NCBI GenBank assembly: GCA_001584585.1
Contig: LSYV01000052.1
Coordinates: 168,247-232,246, forward strand
From: Gonium pectorale
Taxonomy: Eukaryota > Chlorophyta > Chlorophyceae > Chlamydomonadales > Volvocaceae
Reading direction: 5' to 3'
DNA: 64,000 bases
Shown here: positions 30,346 through 51,100 of the stretch, in pieces
Layout: each line of letters begins with the position of its first letter
Numbering within the stretch: the stretch's first letter is position 1
Translations under genes and position numbers: made by a program
Notes under the pieces: model-generated
Told to the model about the DNA's origin: nothing
Databases searched by the model: none
What the model saw: only the letters and a program-made list of their open reading frames with translations

Positions 30346-30350
30346 TTACA
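30346..30350 (-). terminator. TGTAA poly(A) signal, 819-residue protein gene
   Basis: TTACA on the + strand, the first one below the stop at 31494 (3'UTR about 1.15 kb). It lies inside the inferred 3'UTR of the convergent EGF-like gene. Confidence 0.35.
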
Positions 30351-31493: not shown

Positions 31494-34400
31494 TCATCGC
31501 TGCGGCTGCCGCTGCCGCAGGTTGGGCCGCTCCCCCCGCCACCAGGACCCCACACTGCGCGCCACGCTGCCGGCCTCAGCGGCTGCCGCGCCTCGCTGCT
31601 GTGCCACGGGGCCTGGGGGCCTGCTGCTGGCGCCGCCGCCGGCGGCACCAGCGGCGGCGGCAGTGCCGGTGGCGATGGCACCGCCGCCGCCGTGGATGCC
31701 CCCGATCACGCCGCCGCCCGCAACAGCGGTGGCGGCGGTGGCGACGCCTCCGCCGCCGGACACCTCGCCGCCCCGCCACGACCGCCAGACCACCAGGCCG
31801 TACAGCAGCTGGAAGATCGCCAGCAGGATCCGGCCGTACAATGCTGTACACCAGTGGATCGGCCAGTAGATCCAGCCGAGCCAGCCGCGGCTGGCCCACG
31901 GGTCACTCTCCCCGGTGGCCGCCTCGTTCTCCAGCCACTCCAGGTGCAGCGTCCTCGAGACCCACCTGACAAGGGCGGGCGATCGAGCGATGGAGGGCTT
32001 CAACCAACCGAGGACTCAGGGGATACAGGATTGATTGTGATTGCTTGTCCTCAACAGATGCCAAGAGGGCGCGCGAACAAGAGCCACAGAGCTGGGTCGC
32101 TTGTCCGCCGAGAGAGAGAGGACACACGCACAGAGGGCAAACGCGAGCAGAGGGGCCGCTCAGCGAAGGGGAGCAAACGGGCACGGCGACAGCAAGGGAC
32201 GCAGCGGCACACGCGCTGACGCTGGGCAGGGTGGTATGCTCTGCAGGCAATACGCGTCAACACCGTCCCCACACAGATGCGAACGCGCCGTGGCACGCAC
32301 CGCCCCCGCAGCGGATGCGGCCCTAAAACTTCTATGCTCGCATCGAGGGATCGAAGTGTCGTCCCCACACGCCGCGGAGACGGCAACGCATGCCTACCTG
32401 ACGAGCCACCGCAGGGACCGGCCGCCCGGGAAGAGCGCGTCCAGGGCCGCGAACGCCGCTCGCCGAACCTCCGGCGGCGCGTAGCGCGGCCCGCCGCCCG
32501 AGGTCAGCGAGTACAGCTCATTCTGGGGCGTTGCGGGGGGGGACCCACACAGGCGGGCGCGGCGGGGTGTGCAAGACGCGAATCAGTCCCAAGTCCGATT
32601 GACGGGTGGGGCTGGGTTTCTAGGCGGCCCGGGCCGCGATCGCAGTACCGGTAGTGAGGTAGGAGAGCGGGGCGCGAGGGCACTTGAGGTGCGGTGCGCC
32701 ACCGCCCTCCACCGCTATGGCATGCCGCACCTGCCCTGCCGATACCTCATGGCCGCGCGGGTGGGGCTCGCGGCATGGTGGTGCCAGGGGCGCCGGGGGC
32801 TACAGCTAACTACCTGAGAGGTAGGCCGCTGCGACCGCGTCATTTGCGTGGCGGGGGCTTGCGCGGTTGAGCCGCCAGCTCTCCCCCACCAAGGTGGCCC
32901 GGGCCGTGATCGCAGTAGTCAAGGGAAAGCCCGAGGGGAGAGCACGTGCGGGGCGGCTATCTCCATGCCAGCCGCAACTGCCAGGACCTGACAGCCGGCG
33001 TGGTGGGGCTCGCGCGGTGGAGCCGCCAGCGGCCCCGACGGCCCCGCCACGCCACGCGGAGCACCTCAGACCACCGGCGGCGTGCCATTCCGACCAGGTC
33101 CGGGCCCGCGCAATTCAAATGCGGCCTCATTGGAGGCTTTTGCCGACAGGGCACCTCGGCCTGCGCCCAAGCGCACCTGAAGGCGCAGCTTGGTGATGGT
33201 CGGCAGCCCCGCCAGCGGCGGCGCAGGCGCAGGCGGCGGCTGCGCCCACGGCGTGCGCTGCGCGGGGCCCCGCGCGCCGTCGACGTCGCCCGCGGCTCCG
33301 CCTGCTGCCCCAGCCGCCGGCGGTTGCTTCTCCGCCTCCGCCTCCACGCGCGCCGCTGCCGCCGCCAGAGGCAGCGGCATCGGCGGCCGTGCCAGAGCGC
33401 GGAGCGCCCGCATGTACTTGAGCAGCCCCACCTGGAGGGCAGCGTTGCACCAGCAGTGTCTCCAAACCTCCAAAACAAGAACGGCTTGCCGCAAGCGGTC
33501 ATGCACCAGGCATCTCCGACCCCGACTTCGGGGGCCTGCGTGCAGCCCAGCAGGGTGCTCTCCCACAGGAGAGTTCAAGCAATTGGAAAGTGGTGTCTCG
33601 TGGGGAGCCTTGTGTTAAAATTAAAGGATGCATTTGACGGAGCCTTGTGTGTATCCTGTGTGTCATTCCAGGGCCCTGCTCCTTGGCCGTGCAACGCAGT
33701 AGTGTACGATGCTAAATGCGACTTCGGACTCCCGCTTAGTCAACCAGACAAGCAGTGAACACACCTCACTCTGTATGCGACCTAGAACGTCAGTCACTTC
33801 CACCACCAGAAAGTCCAGACCAGCCAGCGACGCCGCGGACGGCCCCGCAGCCGACGCCGCCGCTCCCGCCGCCCCCCGCGGCGGCGGCGGCTGCCCCGGC
33901 ATCGGCATCGGTGGCGGGAAATGGTGAGCCATAGCGTGCACGTGCTCGTCCATAGCGTAGTACGGCAGGAACGCCGCCGCCAGCGCCAGCAGCCAGGGCC
34001 GCGCCGCCGCCGGCACGGCATCAATATGCGCCACCGGCGGCAGCGCAGCCGCCGGCGCCGCCGTGGGTGACGGCGGCGGCAGCGCGGCGCCCAGCCCCGC
34101 CACCTCGAGCGCGAGGAAGGACCAGAGGGGCTGGAAGCGGGAGAGGCCCGAGTGGACGTCCCCCAGCAGCAGCTGCCGCGACCCGTGGGCTAGCACGTTA
34201 AGGTGTTTGACGCGCTGGTCAGAGTACGACGGCGCCGGCGAGGGCATGGGCGCCGGCGCGGGGGCCGCGGCGGCGGAGGCCGAGCCGCCGCCGACGTCGC
34301 GCGGTAGCAGCAGGAAGCTGCGGGCGGGGCCCAGCGACCGTGCGAATCGGAGGCGGGGAGGCGCGGTGGCGGCGGCGGTGAGCGGTGCAATATGTGAGGA

Positions 34401-36649
34401 GAGCGCGGACCGCAGCCGGGAAACGGCAGCACAGCGGGGGCCCACACCGGGAACCTCCGTCCGAACCTAGTAGGTCCGCAAGCTACAACACCACGCACCC
34501 GATCACCCAATCAACCACCTAAACCCATGGAAGAAGAAGACAAAAGCGCACGCCACGCGCCTCCCCGCTTTGCCCGGCTTACCGGTGCAGCAGCAGCGCG
34601 TATATGGGGGCCACCCAGGGCGTGTCCCACAGCAGCTGGCACAGGTGCAGCAGCGCGCGGGCAGAGTCGGCGGAGGAGCGGCTGGCGTAGTGCACGGCAA
34701 GGACCTGGCGGGGGGGGGGGTGCGGGCACGTGGCGGTGCGGGCACGTGGCGGGTGCGGGCACGTGGCGAGTGGGTGCGGGCAGGTGGCGGGGCGGGCGGG
34801 CGGGCCAGGGGGTGCCAGCAAAGCGCCGCAAGTCAACTTCAGTAACCTCTTCTGGAGGAAACTACACCCGCATCACAAGGGGAGCATCTCAACATTGCCG
34901 GCAACTTCATGTCCCATGCAGGCATGGCCCCGCGAAGGATGACACGATTTGTCACGCACAAAACCGGCGCACCTCGTAGTACAGCTTGCCCGCGTGCGCA
35001 CCCGAGGACGCCCCGCCGCCGCCACCGCTGCCGCCGCCGCCTGTGGCCGGGCCTGACCCCGTACCGCGCGGCCCACCACCAGACGCCCCTGCCCCTGCTG
35101 CGGCTGCGGTGGGGGCGGTGGCGGCGGCGGCTGCGGGGGCGAGCAATGCGGCCCGGGCCGCGGCGTCCAGAGCGCACGTGATGTCCGCAAACAGCTCCTC
35201 GCATACCTGGGCATGGGCGCCGTACAAGTGGACACAGGCCGGATACGGCGCTCAGCGTCGTACTCTGGGTACGGCGCAGGGCGCGACCGTGACGCGTGTC
35301 GCGAAGGATTGGGGCACAGGGTGGTGGGCACTAGCCGCGCGACGCCGTGCTGGCGAAGCTGACCCTCTGCAGTGGGGTACTGGCACCGGGCGCCACTGCG
35401 CGGCCCATCCCGCACATAAGGCCTGCCCAGTCCTGATCCCAGTCCTGATCCCAGTCCCAATCGCCGCGGCGCAGTCGCTGCTCCGCTCCCACAGCTCCCG
35501 CCCCGCCCATGCCCTCCTACGCCCCGCCCCGCCCCGCGTACCACGTGTCGATCCTCAGCGCTGCCGGCGCTGGCGGCGAGGCGGAGCTTCCGGATGACCT
35601 GCGGGCAGTCAAGGAGGGAGCGAGGGAAGGAGGCGCTGGGTGGTGCCCCCCGGGGACCGACGCACGTGCTCGGCTCCGTACGAGCCCCGAGTCCGGGCGC
35701 ACCCGACCCGATGTGGAGGGCGGGCGCGGGGCGCAAGGCGGCAGCAGGCACCAGGGCTCGGTACAAGGATGCTGAGGCGCGCCGTCTGGGTGTTGGTGGG
35801 ACAGGTGGCGACGACGGCGCTTTGCCGGCTGCCCCTGCAACGTGCAACCGTCCCCCGTCGCGCCTCGTTGCCCTCGGCCGGTGCGGCGCGCCGAGTCCGC
35901 ACTCGGATGTGCCACCTCGAGACACCCCAGCTGTTCCCCCGGCCTCACGCAGACCCAAGCGGCTGCTAGCACCACTCACGCCGCTGGCCCCGACGGGAAC
36001 GCCCCACCTCACGCGACACCATCTCCACCATCGAGTTGCCGGGCTCCAGCGAGTGGAGCGGCGCAGTGGTCGCGCCAGCGGCGGTCGCAGGGCGGTGGAC
36101 CCCGCCGTTGACGCCTCTCGCGCCTGCGCCAGCGACGCCACCGCCACCGCTGCTGCTGCTGGCGCTGCCATGGCTCCCGCCGCCCCTGGCGCCGCCGCGA
36201 GGGCTGGTTATGCCTGCAGCACCGCTCCCATCGCCGCCACCTTCCCCGTAGCAATGTCCCCCGTGGGACTCGGCTGGTTGGGTGGTGCCGTCGCGGGGCT
36301 CCGACCCAACCCAGGCTTCTGAAGCGTCGGCGGGTACAGGGGTGGCTGGCATCGCTTCGGTTAGGGCTGTAGGCGCTGCCGGCGCCATCTGTTCGCCGTA
36401 AGAAGTGTCGGGTTGGCGCATAAACGTTTGGGCTTCAGGAAGCGCAGGAGGACCCTCATGCGCACGGATCGGCTCCGCAGGTACGCTCCCCGTCAGTCGC
36501 TGCTCGCTGTTAGGACGTCGTGAGTCAGCGTCGAGCTCTCGGGGCACCTTCGCATCCGCGTGCGGCACCGAGGCTTGACCTTGGTCCGAGAGCGCGTCAG
36601 GTACCCCGGCGCCCAACGCGCTCCAGCTCAGGCCCGGGCTGCTCGCCAT
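31494..36649 (-). CDS. Unrecognised protein, 819 residues, with C-terminal membrane-type helices
   Basis: Eight exons: 36649-36008, 35598-35542, 35206-34973, 34704-34583, 34317-33765, 33431-33177, 32522-32398, 31965-31494. Every junction is in phase, and continuous sequence appears across junctions (for example MVEMVSRE|VIRKLRLAAS, KLYYE|VLAVHYASR, LRLQ|NELYSLTS, SLRWLVR|WVSRTLHLEWL). Residues 1-200 are disordered and Ser/Gly/Pro-rich. A helical body follows, with conserved-looking blocks HYASRSSADSARALLHLCQL, QRVKHLNVLAHGSRQLLL, GDVHSGLSRFQPLWSFLALE and VGLLKYMRALRALA, broken by Ala/Gly inserts. Near the C-terminus, GWIYWPIHWCTALYGRILLA and IFQLLYGLVVW look like one or two membrane helices, then a Gly/Ala tail. 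The well-formed blocks suggest a conserved green-lineage protein, but I do not recognise it. Its mRNA probably also carries the microprotein ORF just upstream. Confidence 0.72.
34721..34790. repeat. Degenerate tandem repeat tgcgggcacgtggcgg
   Basis: About four copies of a 15-18 bp unit in the intron between exons 3 and 4 of the 819-residue protein gene, next to a G10 run. Confidence 0.65.
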
Positions 36650-36662
36650 GCCGACTAGCTCC

Positions 36663-36794
36663 TCATGCGTACTTGTTCAGCGCGGGCTTAATGACCGCAA
36701 AGGTGTAGACCACCAGGGCCACGACCAGGCCGGCAAAGGCGATGGCGAGCCACTGCGGGTCGTCGACAGTCACGGCACCGGCAGTTGGGGCCAT
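36663..36794 (-). CDS. 43-residue single-pass membrane microprotein, upstream cistron
   Basis: ATG at 36794, TGA at 36665-36663. The sequence is a short polar start (MAPTAGAVTVDDPQ), one clean 20-residue hydrophobic helix (WLAIAFAGLVVALVVYTFAV) and a basic end (IKPALNKYA). A clean membrane helix bounded by Asp before and Lys after is unlikely in a chance ORF of this length in such DNA. The start context is good (G at -3, G at +4). The stop codon lies 13 nt before the ATG of the 819-residue protein on the same strand, and the frames differ by one. There is no room for a separate promoter, so either both are on one mRNA or the downstream start is wrong. Size and topology resemble small subunits of organellar membrane complexes; I do not recognise which, if any. 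Confidence 0.6.
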   Translation of the reverse strand: MAPTAGAVTVDDPQWLAIAFAGLVVALVVYTFAVIKPALNKYA

Positions 36795-37366
36795 CGCGTC
36801 CACCAGCTCTGTGTTTCTTTGGGAAGTCGGGGAGAACGACTACTCGCGCCTACTCGCAACTATGACTAGATCAGTATCCTGGAGGCAGCAAAAGGACGAG
36901 TTCGCTACTAGGAATTTACGTTCGAACTGCAAACAGACGTCCACCTTGACCTGGCGCCAACACGGCACGGTGTTTCGTACGCTGTGTCGATGCTTTGTCC
37001 ACACAAAAAATTATCATACTTACAAGTTTGTTGTCTTGCGGCTAGGCACCTAGGCACTAGTGCTTGTTCCCGCCCATCGCCCATCCCGTCGCTCACGCAC
37101 CTCGTGACAGCAGTTCATAGGCGCTAATGCGCTGCAGCGTTAATTACTCCTGGATAGGGTAGTTGTTCGCTACTGCGTAGCCCACCAGCAAGCATATTGC
37201 GGACTCTTCCGTGCCGGCTTCCCTCGAAACCCAAGTCATCGGCGATCCAACTGACAGGGCGTATTACTGCAGCGAAATTGAGCACAGGTGGAAGCGACGG
37301 TTCGTCGTTTTGACTCGAACCACACTCCTGCGACACCCAGCGCGCGCTGCAGCTCTCCCCTCCGCA
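36795..37366. promoter_or_regulatory. Divergent promoter between the microprotein/819-residue locus and the Hsp70-like gene
   Basis: 570 bp between opposite start codons. Less GC-rich than its surroundings (for example acaaaaaattatcatacttac near 37007). No coding sequence seen. I did not identify an unambiguous heat-shock element. Confidence 0.45.
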
Positions 37367-40300
37367 CACATGCAGCCGCAATCTCCCACACTGCAACACC
37401 GCGGTCACGAGCAGCTGCCTGCAGCTCGCCGTCCATCCCGCAGTACTGCGCCCTGGGGTGTCGGCCCTCCAGGAGCTGGCACCAGCGCCGCCAGACCGCC
37501 GCCGGCCGCTAGGCCGCTGGGCCCGGCGGCGGCGACTCTTACGTGCGCTGCCACTAGGACAGCGGCAGCGGCCGCAGCCGCAGCCGTCAGCTGTGGCACC
37601 GCCGCCGCCCGCCGCGACAGCTGCCATCACAGCTGCCGGGGCCATCGGGGCCGCTTCTCCCGGGGCGACTGCACCATCGCCGCCGCGGGGGAGCGTACCG
37701 GCGCAGCCGCCGCAGCGGCGAATGCTACCGGCCCTGGCCCTGGATACCACCGTGTAAGTTTTAGCGTGCGGGGGAAAAGAGAGCATACGGACCAGGGAAG
37801 AGGGAAGACGGAAGCGGCATCATTGGCCGTTGAGAGTGGGGCAACGCAGCTAGGCTGGCACAGGGCTCCGCAAGGAGGGTTATCCCCACGCCACGGTTTG
37901 GCGCACACCAGCCAAGCTCGGTCCGCGTCGGCGCTGCTGCATTTCGCCGCACCGCCACCATCACCTCATTGTTTATTCTCTAATTCTTCGTTGGACCCAC
38001 GAGCCCAGCGCCCAGCGCATCATACCACACCACATCCGCACCTGCACACCGCGCTTACGCCACGCCCCGGCCCTCCCTCGTCGGCTTTACCGCATCTGCC
38101 CCTGCTCCAGCCTACCCCGGCCCGGCCTCATTCCCCCTCCCCGCGCGCGCAGGCGGCCGTGGGCATCGACCTGGGGACCACCACCAGCGCCGTGGCGGTG
38201 GCGGGGCCCGACGGCAGGTGCGGCTGGGGGTGGTTGGCCAGGCGTCTGGCGCCTAGCGCCCAGCCTGCCATGCTTTCCGCGCCCAACAGGACAACAGTCG
38301 CAAGCCCAAGACAACGCCGCTCTTCTTTTCCAACCTCCCACTCTTTTTATCCAACACGCAGTACCCCCATGCACATCGGATTGGATGCGAGGCCGCTTGC
38401 TGCCCGGCTGGCAGCAGATCGCCGCGCACTGCGTGTGCCCGTGGATGCGCTTGCCTGCCGTGACGCCCTCGCGCGCTCCCTCGGCGCGCAAACCCCACTT
38501 GCGCGCTCTGGCGCGGGCCGTCCGTCGCGCTCCCCGACGCTGGACCTTCGGCGCAGTGTCTTTCCCTGCCCTTTTAACTGAATCCTATATGCCGTTGCTC
38601 GCCCAACTTCAGGCCGGTAGTCGTCGAGGACGAAGCGGGGCCGGCAGTGATCCCGTCCGTTGTGTTTGTACAACAGGTACGGCGGAAAGGACGTAACCGA
38701 GGCTCAAGAATGAATCGTCGAGCTGGGTATTTTATGTTCTGCCCTTCTTAGTACTTTCAGACGTCCCTTTCTTTCGGGCTGCCGACCGGATGTTGCCCCT
38801 TGGCACCTGCCTCCTGTTCTGCTCCTCCACCTTATGTACGTGCTCAGGGAGTGTCGGGCTCTTCTTAGGGATTGAGGAAGCTGCGGACGGAGATGGGTTG
38901 GGCGACTTCGGCGCACGCACGCACACACCTCTACTACTACGACCTTTGCTTCAACGATACTACCTAGTTGTACGCAACTCAGCCATCTACGTGGACGCCG
39001 GCATATACCTGGCGGCTGCCGGACGTTCGGATCGCCGACACCCTTTAGAGCCGGGCTTGGCTGTCGGACGGGACAAACGCTGCTGGGACAAACCTAGCTC
39101 ATGGTTATTCATACCCTTTCTCCTTCACCCCCCCGCCCCCTCCACCTCACAGGACGGCCGGGTGTTGGTGGGGGAGGCCGCTGCGGCCGCTGCCGAGTCG
39201 GACCCCGCCAACGCCTTCTACGGAGTCAAACGGCTCATGGGCCGGAGCTACAGGTGGGGCGGGCGTATGGCTGGCCCGTCGCGATGTGCAGGCCGGGGTG
39301 CAGGTCGCTGGGTCAACAGTTGGGTGGCTCCCCGGGGCGCAGTGATCAAAGGGCAGCTGAGGAAGCTCGGGACTATCTGGCGGTCGAGTATTGGAACGGC
39401 TGCAGATCGGAATGGGATTCGGCAGTTGGCTCGACGGGGCGCTGTGGGCCAGCCAGGAAAAGCGATGGATGCGATGGATGTGGGAATGGCCGCCTGAGCT
39501 CGATGCGTCAAACGGAAAAGAACGGGTGCCGATGGGAGCGGGCATCTGAGGCATCTGTTCGTGTGGATTGGATCAGTGCGTCGAGCGTGGCGCCTCATGG
39601 CGTCATCGGCCGGAAGCACAGGCACGGTTATCTGCCAGCTGCGGCACTGTGGCGCCGTTTAAGACCTGGGCGTCACTCCAGGGCACTGCAGGGCGGAGCT
39701 GCGGGCTGCTGGTGGGCCGCAACGAGCGATGTTTCGGGCCGAGCACTTGTGTGATTGATGCATGCTATGCGTGTTGGGTATGCGGAGTGTCGGGCGGCTT
39801 GCAGGCAGCCTGTCTGCAGGCAGCCTGTGTGCAGGCAGCCTGTGTGCAGGTGCGTCGGCCGGGTGGTGCAATGCCGGACTCGCGTCTGTCATACCCCGAT
39901 ACCGGTGTATCGCGGGGGAGCCACGCGCCATTGGACACGGCGCTCCTCTCGCCTCCCCCGCACGCAGCGAGGCGGTGGCGGAGGCGGAGGATGGCGAGGG
40001 CGCTGCATCGCCCTCCTCGTCGTCGTCGGCGGCGGCGGAGGGCCCCCTGCGCCGGCGGCTCGGCGGCCTGCGCAGCTTCGGCCTGGTGGAGGGCCCCACC
40101 GGCGGCGTGGAGCTGGCCTGCCCCGCCCTTGGCCGCAGCATGACCCCGCCCGAGGTGCGCCCCGGACCAGCGACACAACAGCCCCGCGGGCCCCTCCTTT
40201 CCGCTGCACTTTGTGCCAAGCGTCCCGCGCGTGCGTGGCGGCATTGTGTTGAGCCGCGCGCCAAGGGCTCCCCCCTGCCTGAGCCGATTCCACGCACCGT

Positions 40301-48130: not shown

Positions 48131-51100
48131 ATGCTAGACAACTACCATGTTATTGAGCTCATCGGCGAGGGCTCGTTCGGCAAGGTAGGACTGCAGAGCC
48201 TGGGAAAAGCTCGCAAAGCACATGGCCCTGTTCCTGCTCTCTATCTCGACGGAGCAAGCCTGCGCTGCGCTGCATGTTTATGCAACGTGCGGGCAGGGCT
48301 GGGGGCCTGTCCGCGGTGGTCCAAGAGCTGGTGCCGCTCCTGTCCCACCGCATGCACGCATCGCAGGTCTACAAGGGCCGCCGGAAATGCACGGGGCAGA
48401 TCACGGCCATGAAATTCATTCTGAAGCAGGTGGGTGGTTGTTACAGGGCCACGGCTGGGGCTGGCGGAGGACGGCACGCAGCGGGGCCCGACGGGTGTTG
48501 CCCGAGGACCGTGGCGTGGACACGGAACATTGGACTGGTAGCAGCCCTCTGCCGGCCACATAGTACGGGGGCTGCACTGCAGCTGGATAGGGGCCACCGG
48601 GGTAGGGATCACAGGGGTAGGGGCCACATGGCACTTGACCACGAGGTGTGGGCGTCGGCGGCAGGCGTGTATGAACCCTCAAGTCCAGCAAGAGCGGGCG
48701 CCCGTGTTGAGGATGCCCACGGCGTGCGCAGTACCACTGGTTGCACCTAGTGTGCCGTGTCCAAGTGGAGAAACGCCTCTGATGGCCAGCATTAACCCAT
48801 AGTGCAGCTAGTGGCGCCGTGGCATGCCTGTGCGGCCTTTGCGGCCAGGGCCAGCGGCCTGCAAGGACATTAGCGAATGGACATGGTCTGGTTGGGGGTC
48901 AGTGGTGGCCAGTGGCGACTCTCAACATATGCCCTGTCGAACCGGCTTGTTCCCGCTGCGGCAACTTGCGACTCTACCACCTGGTGACCCGGACTGAGGC
49001 ACCGTGTGTGGCGCCACCTGCGTTTGAAGTGTGCTTGAGTGCACTGTCTGTGCTTGAGTGCACTGTCTGTGCTTGAGTGCACTGTCCGCATCTTCGCAAC
49101 ACAGGGCAAGTCTGAGAAGGACATCAAGAACCTGCGGCAGGAGATCGAGATCTTGCGCCAGCTGAGGCATGAGAACATCATCCAGATGCTTGACGCCTTT
49201 GAGACGAAGACCGAGTTCTGTGTCGTGACGGGCAAGTTGGGATGCGCCCCAAGGGCTGTGCCGCCTGATGGGACAGCACTGCATACCGCTATCGTGTTGT
49301 TGAAACGGCTCTTGGTGCTGCTGCGCTGCTGAATTGGTCGTCTGCTGTCGTTTTCCCCTTCTGGCTCCGCCCGCGCGCAGAGTACGGCCAGGGCGAGCTG
49401 TTCGAAATCCTGGAGGATGACCAGAGCCTTCCTGAGGAGGTGGTGCGCAGCATCGCAAAGCAGCTGGTGTGTCCTGCATGCGCGCATAGCAGACAGCAAG
49501 GGGATGTTGAGTGGTTCCAAACTGGCTGAACGGAAAAGGGTTTGCAGCAGCCGCAAGGTGGCGGCGCATTGCAATGGACGGAGGCTCTGCTGCTGTATGC
49601 CAGTGCGCGAGGGATGAGGCAGGGACTGTCATCTGTTTTGACCAAGCGCTCCACGTTGCGTCCTCATCCCGCGTACCGCCTCCCGCAGGTCCGCGCTTTG
49701 CACTACCTGCACTCGAACCGCATCATCCACCGCGACATGAAGCCGCAGAACATCCTCATCGGTTCCAATGGTGTCGTCAAGGTCCGCATCGTGCCTGCAC
49801 ATTATGGGATTTCACGGTTCTAGCATGTGCGAGTGTTGCTACACCCGGACGCACGTATCGAGCAGCGGACGGGCGCGCACCGCACACGCTTGCCTGGCAT
49901 GGACATGCCCAGGACACACGTTTCCAACCAGATGTGTACACAGTCGTGCTCTGCCCACACCTGACGTGCGCATTCTTCTGGCTCGCAGCTCTGCGACTTC
50001 GGGTTTGCGCGCGCTATGAGCAGCAATACCATGGTGCTCACGTCCATTAAGGGCACGCCGCTGTACATGGCCCCGGAGCTGGTGCAAGAGCAGCCTTACA
50101 ACCACACGGTATGGGTTGCGCAGTAGGGGACTAGGCTTCGGTCCCAGCGGTTCTGGGTAGGCCTGACTTTTATACGAGCAGGGGCGCGGCGTGGAGACAC
50201 GATGCGAAAGCATATGTAAGCACGGGTCAGGAGGGTACACATGAGGAATTTGCGCGCCTTTCTCGAGCACGCTGCTGCGTACTATTGCGCACTGCTAATG
50301 GCACTGCTAATGGTCTTTCAACGCGGCGCAGGTGGACCTATGGTCTTTGGGCGTCATCCTGTTCGAGCTGTACGTCGGGCAGCCGCCCTTCTATACCAAC
50401 TCTATCTACAGGTGCGCGATACAGCGCGAGTTCGGGAGCTCGAAGGGTCGCCGTGGAGGCGCCGCGTCCGTCTCGGGAGCCGTTCATGTGTCGGGGGCGT
50501 CATGCCATTCGGAAAGTGACCGACGCAGCATCCCGTGGCGTGTACCCGTAGAACCCAATGCGTTTGCGCATGCCTTTGGGGTCAGGGTCTACTGGACTCA
50601 GCGCCCACACGATCGCCCGCGGCCTTCAATGCGTCTTTATTCTCCCCTTCACCATTCACTTGCAGCCTTATCCACCATATCGTGAAGGATCCGGTGAAGT
50701 TCCCCACCAACATCTCCCCAGAATTCAAATCCTTCCTTAAGGTGCGTTCTGTAGCATCACGGTCCCTGCGCGGCGCCTGCCGTTGCTGGATGCGCCCTGG
50801 AAGCAAGCCTAGCGTGCTCGCCTGCATCGTACCGTATTGATTTTATAGGGGAAGCCCTAGCGTTTATCACGCGTGAATTATTTTGCGAACCGTTGCGAGC
50901 ATGGCCTGTTCGAGGCCAACGCCCCCTCGTACCAGACATGGCCGCAGGGCTGGGTGCCCAACTCTCTCGTATGCGAACCGTTATGTCACTCGCAGGGGTT
51001 GCTGAACAAGAAGCCCGCGGACCGGCTGGGATGGCCGCAGCTGCTGGATCACCCCTTCGTACGGGAGACGGACACGGAGCGGTTGGCCAGGGAGCGCATG

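Follow-up and report, generated by a model that had tools for sequence, protein, structure and literature searches.

Can a single nuclear mRNA of Gonium pectorale encode two proteins? The question is raised by a locus on the minus strand of contig LSYV01000052.1, where a 43-codon reading frame (ORF1) closes shortly before the start codon of a much larger one (ORF2). All coordinates refer to the window, i.e., the whole stretch of 64,000 nucleotides that was analyzed. A preliminary description of this DNA had proposed that both frames are translated from one transcript.

The two reading frames and the ORF2 gene

ORF1 is located at 36663-36794 (minus strand) and is 132 nt long, including its TGA stop codon at 36665-36663. 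Its reading frame, codon score and hydropathy define a candidate single-pass membrane microprotein with one stretch of strong hydrophobicity (mean hydropathy over 19 residues, 2.62). Modelled alone with AlphaFold, without relatives, the 43-mer presents a helix at residues 13-42, and it has one match in the Gonium assembly searched (128.9 Mb, 352 contigs). A second AUG (36664-36666) overlaps the ORF1 stop in an ATGA motif and opens a 3-codon ORF that is closed before the ORF2 ATG. The inter-ORF spacer, deduced from the positions of the ORF1 stop and the ORF2 ATG, covers 13 nt (36650-36662). The arrangement originally described, with both ORFs on the same strand and in different frames, is found at 36794-36663 for the small ORF and from 36649 for the larger one.

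The gene model of ORF2 was assembled by hand from reading frames and GT-AG splice sites. Exon 1, which carries the shared start MASSPGLSW, was placed at 36008-36649 by the splice model and start scoring. It is followed on the minus strand by exons 2 (35542-35598), 3 (34973-35206), 4 (34583-34704), 5 (33765-34317), 6 (33177-33431), 7 (32398-32522) and 8 (31494-31965, with the stop codon ending at 31494), all seven giving the same protein in the published model GPECTOR_51g691. The eight exons add up to exactly 819 codons, the length reported earlier for the larger ORF, and position 36008, given in the preliminary description, proved to be the 3' limit of exon 1. Residues 205-700 of ORF2 are 100% identical to G. 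pectorale GPECTOR_51g691.

A protein search with ORF2 (7983 candidates scored) led to ten proteins: Gonium's own, two from Volvox africanus, one each from V. carteri, V. reticuliferus, Edaphochlamys, Chlamydomonas sp. UWO 241 and a pedinophyte, and two metagenome proteins. A composite query, consisting of the 43-mer and the conserved ORF2 blocks (7992 candidates scored), gave seven matches, six of which were shared with the ORF2 search (Gonium's own included), while the seventh, a Micractinium protein, is an additional relative. No C. reinhardtii orthologue was present among the listed matches of either search, which the selection of candidates may have limited. Concerning known domains, Pfam assigned no family to ORF2 or to seven of its relatives. 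The structure model of one relative (P0009) is helical with a mean pLDDT of 68.7, and it had no match among PDB structures at E <= 0.001. ORF2 itself harbors a hydrophobic stretch at the C-terminal only, weaker than that of ORF1 (hydropathy 1.85). The characterization of both products as membrane-type accordingly holds for ORF1 and only partly for ORF2.

ORF2 most likely begins at 36649, because this start resembles those of its orthologues and outranks every other ATG. Specifically, three orthologues (P0004, P0006 and P0008) begin with MANGPGL, the ORF2-like start being shared by V. africanus, V. carteri and Edaphochlamys. When the nine-residue start was scored against these three orthologues, the ATG at 36649 reached 36.3 and ranked first among the 1379 ATGs of the window, the next one scoring 18.7. 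In the models of two other relatives (P0005 and P0007) the N-terminus is shorter and does not include a start of the MANGPGL type.

Coding signal and relatives of ORF1

Carrier and kinase genes from this genome served to train the codon scores; out of 60 exon segments, six with an in-frame stop were left out and the remaining 54 pieces (5858 codons) were used. Kinase matches were also noted in two contigs (G000:C26 and C46) within open frames listed as 6242 and 33295 residues long, which could be due to masked stretches or foreign sequence. In the window, protein-kinase exon pieces lie on the plus strand at about 49689-50123 (G000:C52:217935-218030 and 218232-218357), with a kinase-like ORF at 50016. 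Pfam matched none of seven other long open frames of the window.

The 43-mer looks like coding sequence. Its codon score of 0.43 ranks first when all 151 window ORFs of 35-60 codons with an ATG start are compared, and against 111 left-out windows of real exons it falls at the 47th percentile. By synonymous choice alone, three of the 151 (ORF1 included) reach the score of ORF1, which stands at the 25th percentile of the real windows. Among 487 further ORFs of the same size range from 60 loci of the genome, two reach its codon score, none matches its hydrophobicity and none combines the codon score with a TM score of 1.6. When the amino acids were kept fixed and synonymous codons were randomized according to the base composition of the window, only 19 of 20000 versions scored as high, and the value of ORF1 (6.97) agrees with that expected of coding sequence (8.4, sd 4.3). 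Across the stop-free windows of 37390-36630, the top coding signal belongs to the ORF1 frame (0.51-0.90 at 36770-36730), all others being <= 0.19.

Exon 1 of ORF2, on the other hand, scored poorly (-0.07, -0.55, -0.32 and -0.49, against a 5th percentile of 0.04 for real windows), so the case for coding there is built on the shared start and not on codon use. It is probably a fast-evolving, disordered N-terminal region.

Relatives of the 43-mer were searched for in several ways. The protein search returned none, with no candidate sharing three words with it, and among the composite-query matches the 43-mer appeared only in Gonium's own protein. Viral contigs gave no confirmed match. All Pfam matches of the 43-mer were below the cut-off (e.g., Anthrone_oxy, 19 bits vs. 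27.3), and NCBIfam had no match for ORF1 or for two ORF2 relatives. PsbJ was the sole PDB sequence match, at a meaningless E-value of 0.97. Ost4, the small subunit of oligosaccharyltransferase, was considered as an identity but was absent among the Pfam matches up to E 10, subject to the HMMER filters. A genome search with Ost4 gave no match here and likewise none in 14 controls, and was uninformative. The two proteins had previously been called unrecognised; this stands for both in Pfam, and in NCBIfam for ORF1 and the two ORF2 relatives, but ORF2 is conserved across several green algae.

A probable single transcript and its alternatives

We consider a bicistronic nuclear locus, with one mRNA for both ORFs and leaky scanning, the best explanation, at a probability of roughly two in three. 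It is favored because ORF1 is coding-like, the ORF2 start is conserved and the two are 13 nt apart. Counting against it, no protein relative of the 43-mer was found, nor any 43-mer fused to ORF2 in other species, and the codon use of ORF2 exon 1 is poor. The single mRNA of the preliminary description retains these three supports, but it is challenged by the published model, in which an intron connects the two frames.

GPECTOR_51g691 (NCBI/UniRef) is a protein of 705 residues in which 41 residues of the 43-mer run directly into GGGSHG from ORF2 exon 1. If it were right, the first 41 codons of ORF1 would form the first exon of the large gene, and an intron at 36186-36672 (minus strand) would supply ORF2 with an N-terminal membrane anchor. 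The intron has GT-AG borders and keeps the frame, and the donor letters GTACGC recur at ORF2 intron 2. Moreover, the Gonium annotation, as described in PMC4844696, was produced by AUGUSTUS with RNA-seq intron hints, so junction reads for 36672-36186 could exist. However, the intron takes out the ORF2 start common to Volvox and Edaphochlamys, and the 43-mer is absent, as read by eye, from the nine other proteins of the ORF2 search and from that of Micractinium. Its acceptor has the lowest pyrimidine content of the eight (0.56, the seven others ranging from 0.61 to 0.83), and its donor is preceded by A, unlike the seven ORF2 intron donors, which follow a G. A predictor that allows one CDS per transcript would, in our view, be prone to such joins. 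The joining of the frames by this intron is unlikely and it is probably not the main splice form; the public annotation seems to have fused two reading frames by mistake.

A slightly less probable reading regards ORF1 as an ordinary regulatory uORF that merely lowers ORF2 translation and whose peptide is irrelevant. ORF1 lies entirely within the presumed 5' leader at a short spacing, the searches returned no protein relative of it, and bicistrons and uORFs are described as a continuum (PMC11892635). On the contrary, its codon choice is exon-like and it encodes a strong hydrophobic helix. It is quite improbable that the locus switches by splicing, so that unspliced transcripts would give a free microprotein and ORF2, and those spliced at 36672-36186 an anchored fusion.

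TGTAA acts as a 3'-end signal in volvocine algae. The window contains 34 such sites on both strands, with 34.2 expected by chance, and from ORF1 down to 30350 the minus strand has none for approximately 6.3 kb. The first one (30346-30350, minus strand, a motif match) is situated about 1.1 kb past the ORF2 stop and could be the 3'-end signal of a shared mRNA. At the density of the window, a TGTAA-free gap of 6.3 kb on one strand is expected about 1 time in 5, and it is therefore no proof of a shared mRNA; it tells against an independent ORF1 gene only insofar as such genes need TGTAA.

Upstream of ORF1, on the plus strand, lies a divergent HSP70/DnaK-like gene (about 38150-39255), whose exons, joined by eye, match DnaK with an E-value of 1e-12. 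With this gene so close, a long ORF1 leader would hardly fit, and the two loci may share a compact bidirectional promoter region.

Two separate transcripts are very improbable. In that reading the microprotein would have a short mRNA that ends on its own, and the ORF2 mRNA would start within or just past ORF1. The sequence is compatible with this and other poly(A) signals may serve, but the stretch past ORF1 is free of TGTAA and the 13-nt spacer is, as had been argued before, too short for a promoter, which would have to overlap coding sequence. Just as improbable is that the 43-mer is the last exon of a gene starting upstream, e.g., with a targeting peptide. In favor of this, its frame stays open for 15 codons 5' of the ATG, and frame 0 has stop-containing windows near 37170-37190 with scores as high as 0.39; against it, those 15 codons score -0.15, stop-free 20-codon windows 5' of the ATG are <= 0.10 (except 0.19 at 36810, which overlaps ORF1), the divergent HSP70-like gene occupies the other strand and GPECTOR_51g691 begins at the same ATG.

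Translation and comparison with known loci

Returning to the bicistronic mRNA, we infer that there is one transcript, that ORF2 is reached by leaky scanning and not by reinitiation, and that a stable microprotein acts in a membrane. The mRNA would have its 5' end upstream of 36794, a spliced ORF2 part and a 3' end perhaps near 30346. Scanning ribosomes would begin at the first AUG and produce the 43-residue single-pass membrane microprotein, while some would bypass both the ORF1 AUG and the second AUG and initiate ORF2 at 36649, giving a product of 819 residues that is probably helical. Leaky scanning is preferred because it has been experimentally shown for other green-algal bicistrons and because reinitiation declines with uORF length, both according to PMC11892635.

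The same report names a weak ORF1 context and AUG depletion as marks of leaky scanning in C. reinhardtii and Auxenochlorella (PMC11892635). At the Gonium locus these features are neutral. The minus-strand AUGs from 37050 to ORF2 are found at 37017, 36794 (ORF1), 36666 (3 codons) and 36649 (ORF2). ORF1 and ORF2 have similar starts, with G at -3 and G at +4, and the context of ORF1 is not clearly weaker; the second AUG has C at -3 and A at +4. From 37016 to the ORF2 ATG the only two AUGs are those at 36794 and 36666; this count of two compares with 2.7 expected for an assumed leader of 83 nt, the median given for C. reinhardtii bicistrons (PMC11892635).

Green algae are already known to have loci of this arrangement, and the Gonium one is probably a further case. 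In the green-algal bicistrons (Duenas 2025, PMC11892635; Gallaher 2021, via PMC11892635 and PMC8226300), as reported there, a short ORF1 likewise directly precedes a longer ORF2 on the same strand, the two are very closely spaced and ORF1 is mis-modelled by annotation. The short inter-ORF distance that the preliminary description had expected of such loci is borne out here, with 13 nt between frames of 43 and 819 codons. Nevertheless, with 132 nt against median lengths of 357 and 291 nt, the Gonium ORF1 is far shorter, and its 13-nt gap also stays below the median gaps of 183 and 40 nt (PMC11892635). The locus also differs in having neither a clearly weaker ORF1 context nor a clear depletion of AUGs, and while the described class is backed by transcripts (PMC11892635), the Gonium locus is known from its sequence.

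ORF1 resembles the class 3 uORFs described in Chlamydomonas (Cross 2015, PMC4751561) in that it opens and closes ahead of the main start codon, but it differs from that class in its coding-like codon use and hydrophobic helix. Drosophila Sloth1/Sloth2 are also described as small proteins from one bicistronic transcript, although in an unrelated organism and with both partners being small peptides (PMC9681215). A literature search on nuclear bicistronic loci in Gonium found no paper.

If splicing did switch the locus, alternative splicing would toggle it between a bicistron and a fused, membrane-anchored protein. Probably bicistronic, and unusual for the small size of its first cistron, the Gonium locus joins the list of algal loci of this kind and illustrates how gene models may hide a bicistron as a fusion, while offering a clean test case where uORFs and true cistrons meet.
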